Of a stretch of 64,000 nt of DNA, positions 28,683-36,537 are shown piece after piece (within the stretch, counting starts at the first letter, position 1; every line of letters starts with the position of its first letter). A model generated the notes under the pieces. The model saw only the letters and a list, made by a program, of their open reading frames with translations, searched no databases and was not told the origin of the DNA. This DNA is from Tenggerimyces flavus (GTDB lineage: Bacteria > Actinomycetota > Actinomycetes > Propionibacteriales > Actinopolymorphaceae), in NCBI RefSeq assembly GCF_016907715.1, contig NZ_JAFBCM010000001.1, positions 6,882,001 to 6,946,000 of the forward strand. Direction: 5' to 3'. The translations under genes were made by a program, and so were the position numbers.

Positions 28683-29480
28683 GTGAGGGTCGGAGAGATC
28701 GCACTGGATCCGGTGGCGGACGGCTCGTTCGTCGCCCGGCCGGCGTACTTCGGTGCGCACGTTCCGCCCGACGCGCATCCGGAGCTGTTCTCCCGCCACG
28801 GTGCGGCCTGGCTGCCGATCGGGTGCTTCCTCGTCCGTACGGGCTCGCGGGTCGTGCTGGTCGACGCCGGGCTAGGGCCGTCGCTGGAGGACGTCGCCGA
28901 GGGCATGCTGCTGGTCGGCGGGCAGCTCCTCACGGGGCTGCACGCGCTGGGAGTCGGTCCGTCTGATGTGACGGATGTCGTGTGCAGTCACCTGCACAGC
29001 GACCACGTGGGGTGGCTGTTCGACCTGTCGTCGGTGCCGGTCTTCCCGCGGGCAACGATCTGGTTCGGGCTCGGGGACTTCGAGCATTTCGTCAGCGGGG
29101 CGGGGTTCATGCAGCCGCACATTCGGTCGGGGTTCTCCGACAGCTCCCGGCTCCGGTTGGTGGACGAGGACGTGACGGTGGCGCCCGGTGTCACCGTGCT
29201 CCGTACGCCCGGCCACACGCCCGGGCACCTGTGCGTCGTGGTCTCGTCCGGCCCCTCCCGCGCCCTGTTGCTGGGTGACGCGATCACCTGCCCGATCCAG
29301 CTCGACGAGCCGACCTGGCACTCCCTGGGAGACGTCGACCCCGCCCTCGCGAACCGCACCCGCGAGCTGATGTGGCGCGAGCTCGAGCAGGAAGGAACGG
29401 TAGGAACCGGCGCACACTTTCCCGACCTCCGCTTCGGCCGTCTCCTCGAGGGCAAGGCCAGCCGCCGCTGGCATATCTGA
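28683..29480 (+). CDS. Metallo-beta-lactamase-fold hydrolase
   Basis: The 265-residue protein has the zinc-binding signature HLHSDHVGW (HxHxDH). Further metal ligands are His in TPGHTPGHL and Asp in LLLGDAITC, plus a late His in TVGTGAHFPD. The architecture matches N-acyl-homoserine-lactonase/metal-dependent hydrolase relatives. The substrate is unknown. It begins at a GTG 12 bases after the preceding gene without a clear ribosome site, so translational coupling is possible. Confidence 0.88.
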   Translation: MRVGEIALDPVADGSFVARPAYFGAHVPPDAHPELFSRHGAAWLPIGCFLVRTGSRVVLVDAGLGPSLEDVAEGMLLVGGQLLTGLHALGVGPSDVTDVVCSHLHSDHVGWLFDLSSVPVFPRATIWFGLGDFEHFVSGAGFMQPHIRSGFSDSSRLRLVDEDVTVAPGVTVLRTPGHTPGHLCVVVSSGPSRALLLGDAITCPIQLDEPTWHSLGDVDPALANRTRELMWRELEQEGTVGTGAHFPDLRFGRLLEGKASRRWHI

Positions 29481-29516
29481 GCCCTCGCGGCTGGCCTCGA
29501 GCCCTACCCTGAGCGA

Positions 29517-31271
29517 ATGTCGACTGGCGAGACCCGTGGGCTGGGGCGGTGGGCTCCCGGCCTGTCCGAGCTCCGGCGCTACGAGCGCGGGTGGCTGCGC
29601 GGGGATGTGGTGGCGGGGGTCGCCGTGGCGGCGTACCTCATCCCGCAGGTCATGGCCTACGCCGAAGTCGCCGGGCTCCCACCCGTCACTGGCCTCTGGG
29701 CGATCTCCGGCTCGCTCGTCGTCTACGCGATCCTCGGCTCCTCGCGTCAGCTGTCCGTCGGCCCCGAGTCCACCACCGCGCTGATGACGGCCACCGCCAT
29801 CGCGCCGTTCGCCGCGGGTGATCCGGGCAAGTACGCCGGACTCGCCGCGGCCCTCGCGATCGTCGTCGGCGCGCTCTGCATCGTCTCCAGGCTCGGCAAG
29901 CTCGGGTTCCTCTCCGACCTGCTCTCCAAGCCCGTCCTCGTCGGCTACATGGCCGGCGTCGCGGTGATCATGATCGTGAGCCAGATCGGCAAGGTGACCC
30001 GCCTCGACTCCACCGCCGACTCGTTCCTCGGAGACCTCGCCTTCTATGCCACCCACCTCGCCGACACGCACCTCCCGACGCTCCTGCTCGCTGCCGGCAT
30101 GCTCACTGTCCTGCTCGTCGTCGGCCGCATGTTCCCGCGGGCACCGATCCCCCTCATCGCGATGCTGCTCGCCATCGGCGTCGTGATGGTGTTCGGCCTG
30201 CAGCAGCTGGGCATCGAGGTCGTCGGAACGATCCCCGCCGGTTTCCCCGTCCCCACCGTCCCCGACGTCACCGCCCACGACTGGTCCGTGCTCCTGCTCC
30301 CCGCCGTCGGCCTCGCGATCGTCGCGTACAACGACAACATCCTCACCGCCCGTGCGTTCGCGAGCCGCAACAGCTACGCGGTCGACGGCAACCAGGAACT
30401 GCTCGCGCTCGGTGCCGCCAACGTCGCGGCCGGCGTCATGCAGGGCTTCCCGGTCAGCAGCAGCGGCAGCCGTACGGCGATCGGCGACTCGCTGAAGAGC
30501 CGCACCCAGCTCTACTCCCTCGTGGCGCTGGCTGTGGTGATCGTCACAGTGCTGTTCCTCCGCCCCGTCCTGGCCAGCTTCCCCACCGCCGCCCTGGGCG
30601 CGATCGTCATCTACGCCGCGATCAGGCTGATCGACCTCGCCGAGCTCAAACGTCTGATCCGGTTCCGCCGCAGCGAGTTCGTGATCGCGATCGCGACGAC
30701 GATCTCCGTGCTCGTCTTCGACATCCTCTACGGCATCCTCGTCGCGGTCGGCCTCTCGATCCTCAACCTGCTCCGCCGCGTCGCCCGCCCGCACGACGCG
30801 ATCCTCGGGTACGTACCTGGCCTCGCCGGCATGCACGACGTGGACGACTACCCCAGCACCAAGCTCGTTCCCGGCCTCGTCGTCTACCGGTACGACTCGC
30901 CGCTCTTCTTCGCCAACGCCGAGAACTTCAAGAAGCGCGCGCTCGAGTCCATCGACGCCGCGGACCAACCCGTGGAGTGGTTCGTGCTCAACGCGGAGGC
31001 GAACGTCGAGATCGACATCACCGGGGTCGACGCCCTCGACGAGCTCCACGAGGAGCTCGAGCGGCGCGGCATCGAGTTCGCGCTGGCCCGCGTCAAGCAG
31101 GACTTGCGCACCGAGCTCGAGGCCGCGGGCATCGTCGAACGCGTCGGCGAGAACCGCATCTTCCCCACCCTCCCGACCGCGGTGCAGGCGTACGTCGAGG
31201 CGTACGTCGCACGCCACGGCGCGCCACCCGAGGGCGTGACCATCCAAGAGCCACCCCGGCCACCCATCTAA
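29517..31271 (+). CDS. SulP (SLC26) anion transporter with C-terminal STAS domain
   Basis: The 584-residue permease has about 12-14 membrane segments, starting with VVAGVAVAAYLIPQVMAYAE and the SulP signature around GLPPVTGLW. TM3/TM10 blocks include SVGPESTTALM and GFPVSSSGSRTAIGDSL. The C-terminal ~120 residues are a cytosolic STAS domain (GLVVYRYDSPLFFANAENFK; VEIDITGVDALDELH). It would import sulfate or another anion such as bicarbonate. It is followed by a TetR operator and gene. Confidence 0.93.
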   Translation: MSTGETRGLGRWAPGLSELRRYERGWLRGDVVAGVAVAAYLIPQVMAYAEVAGLPPVTGLWAISGSLVVYAILGSSRQLSVGPESTTALMTATAIAPFAAGDPGKYAGLAAALAIVVGALCIVSRLGKLGFLSDLLSKPVLVGYMAGVAVIMIVSQIGKVTRLDSTADSFLGDLAFYATHLADTHLPTLLLAAGMLTVLLVVGRMFPRAPIPLIAMLLAIGVVMVFGLQQLGIEVVGTIPAGFPVPTVPDVTAHDWSVLLLPAVGLAIVAYNDNILTARAFASRNSYAVDGNQELLALGAANVAAGVMQGFPVSSSGSRTAIGDSLKSRTQLYSLVALAVVIVTVLFLRPVLASFPTAALGAIVIYAAIRLIDLAELKRLIRFRRSEFVIAIATTISVLVFDILYGILVAVGLSILNLLRRVARPHDAILGYVPGLAGMHDVDDYPSTKLVPGLVVYRYDSPLFFANAENFKKRALESIDAADQPVEWFVLNAEANVEIDITGVDALDELHEELERRGIEFALARVKQDLRTELEAAGIVERVGENRIFPTLPTAVQAYVEAYVARHGAPPEGVTIQEPPRPPI

Positions 31272-31285
31272 AGCCCAGCGGTTTG

Positions 31286-31303
31286 TGACTGACTGGTCAG
31301 TCA
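31286..31303. promoter_or_regulatory. TetR operator: TGACTGA-CTGG-TCAGTCA
   Basis: A perfect 7-bp inverted repeat with a 4-base spacer lies 15 bases before the TetR start. It is directly followed by CATGATAG, which could serve as a -10 element. The position and the TGAC/GTCA symmetry are typical of TetR autoregulation. It would repress the whole downstream operon. Confidence 0.65.
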
Positions 31304-31318
31304 TGATAGAACGAAGGC

Positions 31319-31921
31319 ATGGCTCCACGCCGCGTCGACGCCGAAGCAAGGCGGACGGAGATCCTGGCCGCCGCCGTCCGCACGTTCGCCCGCAAGGGCT
31401 ACGCCGCCACCCGGATCGAGGACGTCGCCGCGGAAGCGGGGATCGGCAAGGGCAGCGTCTACCTGTACTTCGACAGCCGCGAGTCCCTGCTCCACAGCGC
31501 GTTCCAGGCGATGACGACCGCCTCGCAGGGCGTCCTCGACGCGGCACGCGAGGGAGCCGGCACACCGCTCGAGCGGCTCGCCGGGCTGATCCGCGACGTA
31601 CTCGGCATGATCGCGAGCGACCCCGACCTGTCCGTGGTCCTGCTCGACTTCTGGGCGGCAGGACGTCTCGGCGACGCGCCGCAGCCGATCGACATGGCCC
31701 AGCTGTACGTCGACTACCGGGCCGTCATCGTCGCGTTGCTCCGTGAGGCCGCGACCGAGGGAACGGTCCGCGAGGACGTCGGCGAGCAGGAGGCGATGGT
31801 CCTCGTCGGCGCCATCGAGGGTTGCATGCTCCAGTGGGTGATGGACCCGCGGATCTCGCTCCCAGGTCTCGCCGAGCCGATCGTCGCCGTGTGCATCGAC
31901 GGACTGAGGAAGGAGAAGTGA
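31319..31921 (+). CDS. TetR-family repressor
   Basis: The 200-residue regulator has an N-terminal HTH (ILAAAVRTFARKGYAATRIE ... GIGKGSVYLYFDSRESLL) typical of TetR, and a helical ligand domain. Its own promoter contains a clean operator palindrome. The stop is one base from the FAD monooxygenase start, so it heads the operon that runs through the SDR gene at 36537. The ligand is presumably a substrate or product of those enzymes. Confidence 0.92.
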   Translation: MAPRRVDAEARRTEILAAAVRTFARKGYAATRIEDVAAEAGIGKGSVYLYFDSRESLLHSAFQAMTTASQGVLDAAREGAGTPLERLAGLIRDVLGMIASDPDLSVVLLDFWAAGRLGDAPQPIDMAQLYVDYRAVIVALLREAATEGTVREDVGEQEAMVLVGAIEGCMLQWVMDPRISLPGLAEPIVAVCIDGLRKEK

Positions 31922-31922
31922 G

Positions 31923-33092
31923 ATGAGAGTCGTGATCATCGGAGCGGGCATCGCCGGGCTCGCGCTGGCCCAGCGGCTCGACGCGCAGGGCAACGAGGTG
32001 ACCGTGCTGGAACGGTCGAACGGTCCGCGCCAGCAGGGCTACATGATCGACTTCTTCGGGCCGGGCTACGACGCGGCGGAGGCCATGGGTGTCCTCCCCC
32101 GCATGAGCGAGCTCGGCTACCGGCTGGCCGAAGCGGGGTGGTACGACGCGAAGGGACGGCGCCGGGCCACGCTCGATCTCGGCGTGTTCTCGGCGAAGAT
32201 CGAGGGCCGGATGATGAGCATCATGCGTCCCGACATCGAGCGCGCGCTTCGCGAAAGCCTGCCCGCGCGGGTCGACGTCCAGTACGGCACGAGCTTCGTC
32301 GACCTGGACGAGCTCGACGCCGACCTGGTCGTCGGCGCGGACGGCATCCACTCGACCGTACGTCACCGTACGTTCGGCGGCGACGACAGCGACTACCTGC
32401 GCCACTTGGGATTCCATACCGCCGCGTTCATCTTCGACGATCCCGAGATTCACGCCGCGGTCCAGGGCAAGTTCTGCTTGACGGACACCGTCGACCGGCA
32501 GGTCGGCCTCTACGCGATGCGCGACGGCCGGGTCGCGGCGTTCACCGTGCACCGCTCCGACGACCCGAACCTTCCGGAGGACCCGCGCGAGGCACTCCGC
32601 CGCGAGTTCGCCGGGCTCGGCTGGCTCGTTCCGCAAACCCTCGAGAAGTGTCCACCAGGCAACGAGGTCTACTACGACGTGGTCGCGCAGGCCGTCCTGC
32701 CGAAGTGGAGCAAGGGACGCGTCGCGCTCGTCGGCGACGCCTGCTACGCGGTCTCCCTCGTCGCCGGTCAGGGTGCGTCGCTCGCGATCTCCGGCGCGTA
32801 CGTCCTCGCCGACCAGCTCGCGCGACATGGCACCGTCGCGGACGCGCTCACCGGCTACGAGCAGGTGTGGCGTCCCGTCGCGGAGGAGAAACAGGAGGCG
32901 GGACGCAAGGGCGTCCGGTGGTTCCTGCCCCGCAGCCGCTTCGACCTGTGGACCAGGCGAACGATGATGAAGGTGTCGCGGCTCCCCGGGATGGACCACC
33001 TCATCGTCGGCGCGTTCACCGGCAAGGTCGTCACCGTCGTCCGGGATCTCGAAGCGAGCGCGGGATCGCGGCGTGACATGCTGGCTGGATGA
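31923..33092 (+). CDS. FAD-dependent aromatic-type monooxygenase
   Basis: The 389-residue protein has the GxGxxG motif VVIIGAGIAGLALAQRL, the DG region VGADGIHSTVRHRTF, and GDACYAVSLVAGQGASLA, the second FAD motif of class A flavin monooxygenases. It is similar in plan to phenol/polyketide hydroxylases and TetX-like enzymes. It would hydroxylate an organic substrate using NAD(P)H and O2. The C-terminal helix region is extended (~100 residues). It overlaps the next gene by ATGA. Confidence 0.88.
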   Translation: MRVVIIGAGIAGLALAQRLDAQGNEVTVLERSNGPRQQGYMIDFFGPGYDAAEAMGVLPRMSELGYRLAEAGWYDAKGRRRATLDLGVFSAKIEGRMMSIMRPDIERALRESLPARVDVQYGTSFVDLDELDADLVVGADGIHSTVRHRTFGGDDSDYLRHLGFHTAAFIFDDPEIHAAVQGKFCLTDTVDRQVGLYAMRDGRVAAFTVHRSDDPNLPEDPREALRREFAGLGWLVPQTLEKCPPGNEVYYDVVAQAVLPKWSKGRVALVGDACYAVSLVAGQGASLAISGAYVLADQLARHGTVADALTGYEQVWRPVAEEKQEAGRKGVRWFLPRSRFDLWTRRTMMKVSRLPGMDHLIVGAFTGKVVTVVRDLEASAGSRRDMLAG

Positions 33093-33571
33093 CCGACGAC
33101 TGGGAGCAGCGGGTAGCAGCGGCGTGGGCAGAGATCGACGAGCATGACGAGGTCGCGTTCCGCGTCCTGATCGACAAGCTGGCCGCCGAGTTGCCGGCGG
33201 GGAGTGCGATCGCCGCGTTCGAACGGGCTTGCGCGTTCGACTCGACCGGGCATCCCGACCAGGCCGTTCCGCTCTACCAGGAGGCGCTCGAGACCGGGCT
33301 GACCGGCCTCCGTCGGCGCCGGGCGAAGATCCAGCTGGCGAGCTCGATCCGCAACCTCGGCAGGCCGCAGGAGAGCGTCGAGATCCTCACCGCCGAGCTC
33401 GACGCGGAGTCCGACGAGCTCGACGACGCCGTCAAGTGCGTGCTCGCCCTCGCGCTCACCGATGTCGGTCGCGAACGGGAGGCCGTCTCGCTCGTCGTCG
33501 GCGCGCTCGCCCGCCACCTGCCGCGCTACCAGCGTTCGATGGCCAACTACGCACGCGCGCTGGTGGAATGA
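33089..33571 (+). CDS. Small TPR-repeat protein
   Basis: The 160-residue protein has about three tetratricopeptide helices pairs (AIAAFERACAFDSTGHPDQA, AKIQLASSIRNLGRPQESVE, CVLALALTDVGREREAVSL), as in the TPR_5 group. It is joined to both neighbours by ATGA overlaps, so it is made with the operon enzymes. It may be a scaffold or assembly factor; no function can be assigned. Confidence 0.85.
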   Translation: MTDDWEQRVAAAWAEIDEHDEVAFRVLIDKLAAELPAGSAIAAFERACAFDSTGHPDQAVPLYQEALETGLTGLRRRRAKIQLASSIRNLGRPQESVEILTAELDAESDELDDAVKCVLALALTDVGREREAVSLVVGALARHLPRYQRSMANYARALVE

Positions 33572-34563
33572 CCGCGGCTGAGCTCGACCTGGCGGGCCTC
33601 CGGAACCTCCTCGACCGCGAGCGCCCCGGCCTCGTCAACGGCCCGTTGACAGCGGAGCTGATCACGGGCGGCAAGTCGAACCTCACGTACGCCGTCACCG
33701 ACGGCGCAGCGAGCTGGATCCTCCGCCGCCCGCCGCTCGGCCACGTTCTCGCCACCGCACACGACATGGGCCGCGAGTACCGGGTGATGGCGGCGCTCGC
33801 GGACACGGCGGTACCTGTACCGCGCATGCTCCTGCCGCACGAGGACCCACCGTTCTACCTGATGGAGTACGTCGAGGGAACCGTCTTCCGTACGCCGGAG
33901 CAGACCGCCGGCCTCGGCCGGGAACGGGCCAGGACGATCAGCCACCACCTCGTCGACGTCCTCGTCACCCTGCACGCCGTCGACCCCGCGACCGTGGGCC
34001 TGGCGGACTTCGGCCGCCCAGACGGCTACCTGGAACGCCAGCTCCGCCGCTGGAGCCAGCAGCTCGAGGCCTCGAAGAGCCGCGACCTGCCCGACCTCGA
34101 CACGCTCGTCGAGCGGCTGCACAGCACCGTGCCCCGGACGAGCAGGCACTCGATCGTGCACGGCGACTACCGCCTCGACAACACGATCGTGCGAGAGGAC
34201 CGCATCGCCGCGGTCGTCGACTGGGAGATGGCCACGCTCGGCGACCCGCTCGCCGACATCGGCCTGCTCACCGTCTACTGGGACCTCTCGATGGCCAACC
34301 CGCACAACCCCGTCGGCGGTGGGGTCACGCGAGAGGCGGGCTTCCCGACCTCGGACGAGTTGGTCGCCTACTACGCCGAACAGAGCGGCGTCGAGCCCGA
34401 ACGGCTGCCCTGGTACCGCGCGTTCGGCCACTTCAAGCTCGCCGTCATCGCCGAAGGAATCCACTACCGCGACCTGCGAGGGCTGACGGTAGGACCTGGC
34501 TTCGATCGCATCGGTGAGTTGGTCGTGCCCCTCGCCCGCAGCGGCCTCGAGCTGCTCAGCTAA
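33568..34563 (+). CDS. APH-fold kinase of the ACAD10/11-LvaA type
   Basis: The 331-residue phosphotransferase has LITGGKSNLTYAVTDG (nucleotide loop), VHGDYRLDNTIV (catalytic loop Asp) and VVDWEMATLGDPLADIGLL (metal-binding Asp). This subgroup, LvaA of Pseudomonas and the kinase half of ACAD10/11, phosphorylates the 4-hydroxyl of 4-hydroxyacyl-CoA. It is followed directly by an acyl-CoA-dehydrogenase-like gene and an SDR, as in lva operons. The assignment to this chemistry is inference from gene order and subgroup motifs. Confidence 0.82.
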   Translation: MTAAELDLAGLRNLLDRERPGLVNGPLTAELITGGKSNLTYAVTDGAASWILRRPPLGHVLATAHDMGREYRVMAALADTAVPVPRMLLPHEDPPFYLMEYVEGTVFRTPEQTAGLGRERARTISHHLVDVLVTLHAVDPATVGLADFGRPDGYLERQLRRWSQQLEASKSRDLPDLDTLVERLHSTVPRTSRHSIVHGDYRLDNTIVREDRIAAVVDWEMATLGDPLADIGLLTVYWDLSMANPHNPVGGGVTREAGFPTSDELVAYYAEQSGVEPERLPWYRAFGHFKLAVIAEGIHYRDLRGLTVGPGFDRIGELVVPLARSGLELLS

Positions 34564-34574
34564 GGAAGGCCGGG

Positions 34575-35798
34575 ATGGACTTCGCCTACGACGCTCGCAC
34601 CGAGGAGCTGCGCGCCGCACTCGACACGTTCCTGCGCGACCACGTCTATCCCGCCGAGCCGGTCTTCGCCGAGCAGCTCGAGACGACGCCGGCCTGGGAA
34701 CGGCCGCCGATCGTCCAAACCCTCAAGGCCGAAGCCAAACGACACGGTCTCTGGAACCTCTTCCTGCCAGGCGAGAACGGCGCCGGCCTCAGCAACCTGC
34801 AGTACGCGCCACTCGCCGAGCTCACCGGCCGCAGCCCGGACCTCGCGCCGGAAGCCCTGAACTGCGCGGCTCCCGACACCGGAAACATGGAGCTGCTCCA
34901 AGAGTTCGGTACGCCAGAACAGCAAGCCACGTGGCTCGTTCCGCTCCTGAACGGCACGATCCGCTCCGCGTTCTGCATGACCGAGCCGGAGGTCGCCTCC
35001 TCCGACGCGACGAACATCGCGACCAGCATCACCGCCGACGGCGACGACTACGTCATCGACGGCCGCAAGTGGTGGTCCACCGGCGCGATGGCACCAGTGT
35101 GCGAGCTGCTCGTGGTGATGGGCCGGACGAACCCGGACGCGGCCAAGCATCGCCAACAGAGCATGGTGCTCGTCCCCCGCTCGACGAGCGGCGTCGACGT
35201 ACGCCGTGGCATGCGGCTGTTCGGCTACACCGACAGCGCGCATGGCGGCCACGCCGAGGTGGTGTTCGACAATGTCCGCGTACCGAAGGGCAACCTGATC
35301 GGCAACGAGGGCGACGGATTCGCGATCGCGCAAGCCAGGCTGGGACCTGGTCGCATCCACCATTGCATGCGGCTCATCGGCATGGCCGAACGCGCGCTGG
35401 AGCTGATGTGCCGCCGAGCGGTCGAGCGGACGCCGTTCGGCAAACCGCTGGCCGAGCAGGGCGTCGTTCAGGACTGGATCGCGGAGTCGCGGGTACGGAT
35501 CGAGCAGCTGCGGCTCCTCGTGCTCAAGACCGCGTGGCTGATGGACACGGTCGGCAACCAGGGTGCGCACACCGAGATCCAGGCGATCAAGATCGCGACC
35601 CCGTCCTCGGTCGAGTGGATCATCGACAAGGCTATCCAGGCCCATGGCGCGGCCGGGCTGTCGCAGGACTTTCCCCTTGCCTCGTTGTGGACCGCTGCTC
35701 GTTCGCTGCGGCTCGCGGACGGCCCGGACGAGGTGCACCGGCGTTCGCTGGCCCGCCGCGAGCTCCGGGCCTACCGGAAGGATCCCCATGCCCACTGA
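34575..35798 (+). CDS. Acyl-CoA dehydrogenase-like protein, ACAD10/11-LvaC type
   Basis: The 407-residue flavoprotein has FCMTEPEVASSDATNIATSI (FAD/substrate strand), WWSTGAM, and a C-terminal block IQAHGAAGLSQDFPLASLWT followed by LRLADGPDEVHRR. Ordinary acyl-CoA dehydrogenases have Tyr-Glu-Gly-Thr at the end, with the Glu as base; here it is Asp-Gly-Pro-Asp-Glu-Val, as in ACAD10/11 and LvaC proteins. It may therefore eliminate phosphate from 4-phosphoacyl-CoA instead of dehydrogenating. AAGGAAGG precedes the ATG. It overlaps the SDR gene by 11 bases. Confidence 0.85.
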   Translation: MDFAYDARTEELRAALDTFLRDHVYPAEPVFAEQLETTPAWERPPIVQTLKAEAKRHGLWNLFLPGENGAGLSNLQYAPLAELTGRSPDLAPEALNCAAPDTGNMELLQEFGTPEQQATWLVPLLNGTIRSAFCMTEPEVASSDATNIATSITADGDDYVIDGRKWWSTGAMAPVCELLVVMGRTNPDAAKHRQQSMVLVPRSTSGVDVRRGMRLFGYTDSAHGGHAEVVFDNVRVPKGNLIGNEGDGFAIAQARLGPGRIHHCMRLIGMAERALELMCRRAVERTPFGKPLAEQGVVQDWIAESRVRIEQLRLLVLKTAWLMDTVGNQGAHTEIQAIKIATPSSVEWIIDKAIQAHGAAGLSQDFPLASLWTAARSLRLADGPDEVHRRSLARRELRAYRKDPHAH

Positions 35799-36537
35799 GC
35801 AAAGTCGGGTCGCGATCGTCACTGCGGCGAGCCGCGGCATCGGTCTCGCGATCGCGCAGGCACTGGTCGATCGCGGCGACCGGGTCTGCGTCACGGGCCG
35901 CAAGCCGGAGGGGCTCGAGGCCGCGGTCGCGTCGCTGGGCGGCGCCGCGATCGGCGTCGCCGGGCGGGCGGACGACGTCGAACACCAGTCCGCCTGCGTG
36001 CAGGCGACGATGGAGGCGTTCGGGCGGGTCGACCTGCTCGTGAACAGTGCCGGCATCAACCCCGTGTACGGGCCGTTGCTGGACCTGGACTTCGACGCGG
36101 CGCGCAAGATGCTCGAGGTCAACGTCCTCGCGCCGATGAGCTGGGCACGCCACGTTCACCAAGCCTGGATGGGCGAACACGGCGGGGCGATCGTGAACGT
36201 CGCGTCCATCGCAGGCCTGCGCACGACGCCAGGCCTCGGCTTCTACGGCATCACGAAGGCGGCGCTGATCCAGGTGACCGCGCAGCTCGCGTCGGAGCTC
36301 GGCCCCCAGGTGCGGGTGAACGCGGTCGCGCCGGCCGTGGTCAAGACGACGTTCGCGACGAAGCTGTACGAGGGTCGCGAGGAGGAGGTCGCGGCGCGTT
36401 ATCCGCTGCGGCGGTTGGGCGTTCCAGCCGACGTCGCCGGGGCCGTGGCGTTCCTGCTGTCGCCGGAGGCGTCGTGGATCACCGGGCAGACGTTCGTCCT
36501 CGACGGCGGCCTGACGCTGTCGGGCGGCCTCATCTGA
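35788..36537 (+). CDS. Short-chain dehydrogenase/reductase (LvaD-like position)
   Basis: The 249-residue SDR has VTAASRGIGLAIAQAL (cofactor motif), NSAG, catalytic Ser in NVASIAG, and YGITKAAL (Tyr-x-x-x-Lys). The C-terminus SWITGQTFVLDGGLTLSGG is the classical family ending. It probably oxidises a hydroxyacyl-CoA or reduces a ketone within the operon pathway. It starts inside the dehydrogenase gene, indicating coupling, and its end overlaps the convergent sulfotransferase gene by eight bases. Confidence 0.88.
   Translation: MPTEQSRVAIVTAASRGIGLAIAQALVDRGDRVCVTGRKPEGLEAAVASLGGAAIGVAGRADDVEHQSACVQATMEAFGRVDLLVNSAGINPVYGPLLDLDFDAARKMLEVNVLAPMSWARHVHQAWMGEHGGAIVNVASIAGLRTTPGLGFYGITKAALIQVTAQLASELGPQVRVNAVAPAVVKTTFATKLYEGREEEVAARYPLRRLGVPADVAGAVAFLLSPEASWITGQTFVLDGGLTLSGGLI

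Follow-up and report, generated by a model that had tools for sequence, protein, structure and literature searches.

A run of six genes in the actinobacterium Tenggerimyces flavus is described here, with a kinase gene and the gene of an acyl-CoA dehydrogenase (ACAD)-like protein at its core. The run lies in a stretch of 64,000 nucleotides (contig NZ_JAFBCM010000001.1, positions 6,882,001 to 6,946,000), which is called the window below and to which all coordinates refer. The two core proteins resemble mammalian ACAD10 and ACAD11, and a gene for a short-chain dehydrogenase/reductase (SDR) follows them. Their order also recalls the lvaABCDE operon of Pseudomonas putida, reportedly described by Rand et al. 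in 2017. The features of the locus are as follows.

31286–31303, no strand assigned: perfect inverted repeat, likely the TetR operator, judged by its symmetry and place
31319–31921, + strand: TetR-family regulator (PF00440, 60 bits)
31923–33092, + strand: FAD-dependent monooxygenase, FAD_binding_3 type (PF01494, 76.8 bits), beginning 1 nt past the TetR stop
33089–33571, + strand: small tetratricopeptide repeat (TPR) protein of the TPR_5 family (PF12688, 177.8 bits), with 4-bp overlaps with the monooxygenase and kinase genes
33568–34563, + strand: predicted 4-hydroxyacyl-CoA kinase of the ACAD10/11 kinase-domain type (D200, N205, R157 and an Arg beside the alpha-C Glu)
34575–35798, + strand: predicted 4-phosphoacyl-CoA-eliminating ACAD of the ACAD10/11–LvaC subgroup (R255, R260, H263, R266, D382)
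35788–36537, + strand: SDR, possibly a 4-oxoacyl-CoA reductase with an LvaD-like role (PF13561, 191 bits)

All six genes are on the + strand at 31319–36537, with no inter-gene gap above 11 nt. Taken in order from TetR, the junctions are a 1-nt gap, two 4-bp overlaps (monooxygenase/TPR and TPR/kinase), an 11-nt gap between kinase and ACAD and an 11-bp overlap between ACAD and SDR. The third-position GC content of 0.86–0.91 in all six frames marks them as coding. For the kinase and the SDR the gene caller had chosen earlier in-frame starts that are over-long; the ATGs at 33568 and 35788 are used here. A preliminary description, made from the sequence alone, had named four + strand genes at 33089–36537 (TPR, APH-fold kinase, ACAD and SDR) with a FAD monooxygenase and a TetR gene ahead of them, and these genes are indeed present, with coding-like third-position GC. 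Its proposal that the genes are coupled by overlaps holds for TPR/kinase and ACAD/SDR and fails for kinase/ACAD, which are 11 nt apart. As the monooxygenase and TPR genes overlap too, the tight gene run begins at TetR. The natural reading of this layout is that the six genes probably form one TetR-controlled operon with a single transcript.

The ACAD-like protein was compared with known structures by a sequence search of the PDB. This returned 4hr3 at 452 bits, mouse ACAD11 at 450 (8v3u) and 448 (8v3v) and human ACAD11 at 450 (2wbi). The next-best ACAD class in the PDB scored 138 bits, so no other ACAD class comes as near to the protein as ACAD11 does. The Asp-Gly-Pro-Asp-Glu-Val stretch that the preliminary description had placed at the usual catalytic site is there, within the motif ADGPDEVH, and D382 of this motif aligns with D753 of mouse ACAD11, an Asp that replaces the usual catalytic Glu. 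By this residue and by its scores the protein is distinct from an ordinary dehydrogenase with the catalytic Glu. In the model of mouse ACAD11 given in PMC12440821, R626, H634 and R637 form the binding site of the 4-phospho group, with D753 as the base and R631 orienting the substrate. Exchange of R626, H634 or R637 for Ala or Leu was reported there as most disruptive to ACAD activity, with partial impairment for R637K, and an ACAD10 mutant in the Asp lost its ACAD activity (PMC11342911). Mouse residues R626, R631, H634, R637, H597 and D753 (numbered as published, which is the PDB chain index plus one) correspond to R255, R260, H263, R266, H226 and D382 in the window protein, and all are kept. 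The full set is found in 62/62 aligned rows, comprising the window protein, mouse ACAD11 and 60 proteins from fetched loci (50 of them distinct) that were chosen by score to the window ACAD. Seven ordinary ACADs, two encoded at plasmid loci and the other five in the T. flavus genome, served as controls; each lacks the equivalents of R626, H634 and R637, and at position 753 six have Glu, one has Pro and none has Asp. The T. flavus genome encodes one ACAD of the ACAD10/11 kind, with the next best 31% identical.

A similar picture emerges for the kinase. Its PDB search returned 9o56 at 191 bits, 3dxp at 167 and the mouse ACAD11 kinase domain at 165 and 161, with 9fsg ('aminoglycoside phosphotransferase-like', 37 bits), 3ats (36), MphH (33) and hygromycin kinase (23) far lower. 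The catalytic residues D220 and N225 of ACAD11 are D200 and N205 here. In the ACAD11 model, R176 and R86, the latter a neighbour of the alpha-C Glu, face CoA (PMC12440821). Both arginines are kept in the window kinase, the first as R157 and the second as the Arg beside the alpha-C Glu, which was identified by this place and not by number, the published R86 being residue 84 by our count. In a tree of 93 rows the window kinase falls in a supported set of 46 (95/91), the other 45 being fetched kinases, many of them ACAD-linked, and the mouse ACAD11 kinase domain falls in a separate supported set of nine (98/99). Both lie on the same side of a branch (98/92), opposite the rows of kinases linked to DUF6285 genes that are treated below, and APH rows from the T. 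flavus genome are found there too. The scores and residues place the kinase with ACAD11 (165 bits) and apart from antibiotic kinases such as MphH (33 bits), and they do not group it with homoserine kinases. The preliminary assignment of kinase and ACAD to the ACAD10/11 subgroup agrees with these scores and residues, by which the two proteins also belong with kinase–ACAD pairs found elsewhere in bacteria; LvaA and LvaC are placed relative to them from papers only.

Relatives of the kinase were sought in 57 genomes of the same order, including T. flavus itself, and in 296 genomes sampled from the class. At order level there were matches (E ≤ 0.001) in 47 of the 57 genomes, many of them weak. Two further families of the order have relatives of 51–57% identity, and the seven genomes of the same family have no match better than E = 1e-7. 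In the class sample 247 of the 296 genomes had matches, up to 64% identical. Such a distribution, with the 51–64% relatives in other families only, may reflect gain by transfer or loss within the family. Among the best 29 class loci (window excluded) the ACAD directly follows the kinase in 24, with a gap of at most 9 nt, and the same is true of 8 of the 13 order-level loci with 51–57% kinases, where gaps reach 50 nt. SDR relatives of 59–70% identity lie on the upstream side of the kinase in 9/29 class and 8/13 order-level loci (1.5-kb flank). Because the ACAD directly follows the kinase, with an SDR upstream, in many class and order-level loci, kinase, ACAD and SDR are on gene order a recurring set. 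The window SDR is at the opposite end of this set, downstream of the kinase–ACAD pair. At one order-level locus, L171, the set is extended by genes for an ordinary ACAD and for an acyl-CoA ligase of the AMP-binding type. The preliminary description had treated the 'split' into two genes as a special feature; separate kinase and ACAD genes are in fact the usual bacterial form in the fetched loci.

Beyond the actinobacteria, plasmid loci of Bosea, Deinococcus, Azoarcus, Azospirillum, Ruegeria, Sphingopyxis, Novosphingobium, Sulfitobacter and Caballeronia carry a kinase with an ACAD of the ACAD10/11 kind and no annotated DUF6285 gene, and at a Comamonas plasmid locus (L166) no kinase is annotated beside the ACAD. 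The kinase–ACAD pair is therefore a common bacterial gene pair, and since it is common the window locus is a further example of an ordinary, already-known kind of locus, belonging to ordinary metabolism. In actinobacteria, then, ACAD10/11 has its bacterial counterpart in a common pair of genes with no LvaB gene alongside. We also observed that a histidine phosphatase gene recurs beside kinase–ACAD sets in Deinococcus, Azoarcus, Azospirillum, Thermus, Burkholderia and Caballeronia (L163, L164, L165, L258, L260, L269; that of L260 was named from its translated start, not from annotation). Its product may clear 4-phosphoacyl-CoA. On a linear plasmid of Streptomyces sp. NBC_00388 (L158, 3654–17203) the kinase and a 76% identical ACAD stand by ketoacyl synthases, a CoA-transferase and an AfsA-domain protein, a stretch that might be a biosynthetic cluster for a lactone or a lipid.

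Mammals use ACAD10 and ACAD11 to bring 4-hydroxy fatty acids into the normal breakdown of fats. The window proteins belong to the same two subfamilies and keep the active-site residues compared with those of the mammalian enzymes, for which the main texts of PMC12440821 and PMC11342911 likewise give no LvaB partner. They differ in being encoded by two separate genes rather than as one fused protein, in lacking the HAD domain that ACAD10 has, and in sharing an operon with genes for an SDR, a TPR protein, a monooxygenase and a TetR regulator. In relation to the P. putida operon, as outlined in PMC6692424, the window kinase, ACAD and SDR stand in the order of A, C and D, as the preliminary description had it, and the ACAD is in the subgroup where LvaC is reported; the likeness to LvaC and LvaD is by description and not by sequence. 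The differences from lvaABCDE are that nothing separates the kinase and ACAD genes in the window, that the genome has no DUF6285 match and that neither a CoA synthetase (LvaE) nor a sigma-54 regulator adjoins; there is a TetR gene instead, and the run ends at the SDR. Pseudomonas citronellolis LA18T offers a further parallel, with kinase, ACAD and SDR together and lvaB not found in the region analysed in PMC6692424, although a histidine phosphatase gene described there has no counterpart in the window operon. The nearest sets are those of other actinobacteria, in which the kinase is up to 64%, the ACAD up to 76% and the SDR up to 70% identical and the kinase usually lies right before the ACAD. 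Their close SDR (59–70%) is upstream of the kinase, whereas that of the window is downstream.

Given these likenesses, we consider it highly probable that the kinase and a phosphate-eliminating ACAD convert 4-hydroxyacyl-CoA via a 4-phospho intermediate to 2-enoyl-CoA, with a kinase of the LvaB-free type, supply by the SDR and a probable TetR operon. The kinase would use ATP to phosphorylate the 4-hydroxyl of 4-hydroxyacyl-CoA, and, like the kinases of ACAD10 and ACAD11, would work without LvaB. The ACAD-fold enzyme would then eliminate the phosphate to give 2-enoyl-CoA, with Asp382 as the base, FAD as a redox-active cofactor and R255, H263 and R266 holding the phosphate, and the product would enter beta-oxidation. 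By analogy with LvaD, the SDR most likely makes 4-hydroxyacyl-CoA from 4-oxoacyl-CoA, or acts one step downstream.

Several observations weigh against this proposal. The SDR scores above the NCBIfam cut-off for 'glucose 1-dehydrogenase' (304 bits against 215), which is not a pointer to acyl-CoA, and an acyl-CoA synthetase is not among the 11 window proteins scanned. The top PDB match of the kinase, 9o56, bears the label aminoglycoside phosphotransferase; in the tree it pairs weakly (92/32) with a Deinococcus kinase whose locus (L163) has an ACAD of the ACAD10/11 kind. The fork that unites the window and ACAD11 kinase groups is itself weak (82/12) and the root is not fixed. An ACAD of this kind is not next door to the kinase in 5/29 class loci and 5/13 order-level loci. 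Finally, LvaA, LvaB and LvaC entered the comparison through papers and not as sequences.

The question of a partner protein leads to LvaB of P. putida, which we take to be a DUF6285 protein. LvaB, of 12 kDa, is a binding partner of LvaA, and lvaA, lvaB and lvaC are each required on levulinate (PMC6692424). In the same source LvaA is PP_2791 and LvaC is PP_2793, and LvaB therefore lies between them. DUF6285 has no match in the T. flavus genome, and none of 18 papers listed in a literature search contains the term. The family occurs in 25/296 phylum genomes, and 26 of 29 fetched stretches have a kinase match (repeat matches in the same contig included). The DUF6285-linked kinases (L129–L157, L255–L259; five from plasmid records) all lie on one side of the 98/92 branch. 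The Arg beside the alpha-C Glu is present in 0/26 of them and in 72/72 other kinases, and the R176 equivalent in 1/26 and 72/72, while D220 and N225 are kept in 98/98; the rows counted are related and not independent, and the 72 were picked by similarity to the window kinase. Left out of the tree were repeat fetches (L171–L181, L244–L252, L153, L155), over-long frames (L138, L141, L150), L253 and 12 near-copies from one genus; L254, a duplicate of L140, stayed in without its DUF6285 label. The arginine count omits the same repeats, over-long frames and L253 together with L254, and keeps the 12 near-copies. In BLAST against the mouse ACAD11 kinase domain the window kinase scores 181 bits, the 26 DUF6285-linked rows 43–85 and the 72 others 115–286. 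A DUF6285 profile of our own making finds 33/33 DUF6285 stretches, 15 of which were used to build it, and finds none in 70 stretches with kinases that are not DUF6285-linked (L257, which has both kinds, was set aside) and none at the window operon. LvaA is reported to share 29% identity with the ACAD10/11 kinase domains (PMC11342911), which is inside the 27–43% BLAST range of the kinases that are not DUF6285-linked and at the top edge of the 22–29% range of those that are.

The two CoA-side arginines thus split the DUF6285-linked kinases from the rest, a difference that might account for the need for LvaB in P. putida but not in mammals. The lack of these arginines hints at a possible function of LvaB. 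The ACADs beside the DUF6285-linked kinases of L254, L256 and L258 have the full residue set, and that directly after kinase and DUF6285 in Variovorax (L255) is ordinary, with Glu and without R626, H634 and R637. Because the L255 ACAD is ordinary, some DUF6285-linked kinases may serve other substrates. One could go further and envisage two kinds of kinase, one self-sufficient with two CoA-gripping arginines and one that has lost both and relies on a DUF6285 partner (LvaB?) to supply the CoA grip, with the window kinase recently coupled to a substrate-making monooxygenase by a TPR adaptor and a TetR switch. As a whole we regard this picture as distinctly unlikely; L255 speaks against it, as does P. 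citronellolis, where a 59% LvaA homologue has no lvaB reported nearby in the region covered by PMC6692424.

The genes upstream of the kinase suggest other roles. TPR proteins commonly mediate protein contacts, and the 4-bp overlap of the TPR and kinase genes suggests translational coupling, so the TPR protein might do the work of LvaB by binding the kinase and being needed for its activity. We find this very improbable. The preliminary description had put the TPR protein in the LvaB slot, but its gene lies upstream of the kinase, and the 11-nt gap between kinase and ACAD has no room for a gene. The protein is modelled as all-helical (mean predicted local distance difference test score, pLDDT, 94.9). 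In profile comparison it matches TPR chains, of which BH0479 (3k9i) is one (profile residues 52–141), and bears no relation to DUF6285 (probability 0.1%). Its TPR_5 family is strongly conserved, at 63–79% identity, in Streptomyces, Pseudonocardia, Jiangella, Nocardia and others, in varied gene contexts. Stretches of up to 8 kb on each side of the best 80 of 282 relatives (63–79% identical) contain no such kinase, ACAD10/11-kind ACAD or monooxygenase, and three of them contain ordinary ACADs (28–31%). Conversely, no TPR gene lies within 1.5 kb in the 29 class kinase loci. The window kinase keeps the arginines that are absent from DUF6285-linked kinases, and the kinase domains of ACAD10 and ACAD11 are active in vitro in PMC12440821 and PMC11342911, where LvaB goes unmentioned in the main text. 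On position, profile and the 0/80 count we rejected the TPR protein as an LvaB substitute. The monooxygenase, for its part, had been proposed to generate the hydroxyacid, that is, to install the hydroxyl that the kinase phosphorylates, and the chain of 4-bp overlaps from monooxygenase to kinase and the one shared operator-like repeat upstream would suit such a role. This too is quite improbable, however. The 25 NCBIfam models shown for it are all below cut-off (PRK07588 at 270 bits against 454) and include models for TetX-like tetracycline destructases and for aromatic hydroxylases, with none for a fatty-acid hydroxylase. None of its 29 fetched class relatives (33–58% by tblastn) has the kinase or a TPR gene within 1.5 kb, on which count it was rejected as a conserved pathway partner, and two of the 29 have a TetR-like gene alongside. 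The actinobacterial kinase–ACAD(–SDR) stretches (L083–L094, L158, L159, L212–L240) contain no relatives of either protein. Because their relatives are unlinked to kinase sets, the TPR and monooxygenase genes appear to be lineage additions, joined to the kinase set in the T. flavus genome only, as far as searched.

The same phosphorylation and elimination might instead be directed at a particular 4-hydroxyacyl group bound to CoA or to a carrier, for instance in the making or breaking of a gamma-lactone signal or a polyketide chain, and not belong to general fat breakdown. TetR regulators and class A flavin monooxygenases are common in secondary metabolism, and this operon opens with one of each. 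In addition, the ACAD most similar to that of the window in the plasmid collection (76%) is, with its kinase, the one found on the Streptomyces plasmid with the AfsA-domain protein, ketoacyl synthases and CoA-transferase. On the other side, AfsA, ketoacyl synthase and carrier proteins are not among the 11 window proteins scanned, and the L171 set, with its ordinary ACAD and acyl-CoA ligase, looks catabolic. We hold this explanation to be possible, if unlikely. That the kinase is instead an antibiotic or small-metabolite kinase beside an unrelated dehydrogenase seems to us extremely improbable. Its Pfam family is APH, NCBIfam models of APH(3') and thiamine kinase match it weakly and far below cut-off, and 9o56 carries the aminoglycoside name at 191 bits; yet the ACAD11 kinase domain, at 165 bits, is far ahead of 9fsg, MphH and hygromycin kinase, the adjacency of kinase and ACAD is conserved and the CoA-side arginines are kept.

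Turning to regulation, the perfect inverted repeat TGACTGAC-TG-GTCAGTCA at 31286–31303 has arms of 8 bp and a 2-bp spacer and lies 15 nt ahead of the TetR ATG. Perfect symmetry and position make it a candidate operator. It is probably that of the adjacent TetR gene, whose product is probably autoregulatory and in control of the operon. At up to two mismatches the pattern has one site in the 8.5-Mb genome; a reversed control pattern likewise has one site per strand, and the single genome-wide match is thus no better than chance. In the window, at up to three mismatches, there is one site against 0.38 expected, with at least one in 31 of 100 shuffles. None of the 17 NCBIfam models listed for the TetR protein is above cut-off. 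A gamma-butyrolactone receptor was considered and found no support, ScbR being the best match at 73 bits against a cut-off of 150.

Just 5′ of the TetR gene and on the same strand, 28683–31271 holds genes for an MBL-fold hydrolase and a SulP-type transporter with a STAS domain. The hydrolase (28683–29480) was considered as a lactonase feeding the pathway; a gene of the HxHxDH type lies near 3/20 kinase loci and 0/80 TPR loci, small counts obtained with a crude gene finder on loci of unequal length. At the 3′ end, a sulfotransferase-like gene on the opposite strand has 8 bp in common with the end of the SDR gene.

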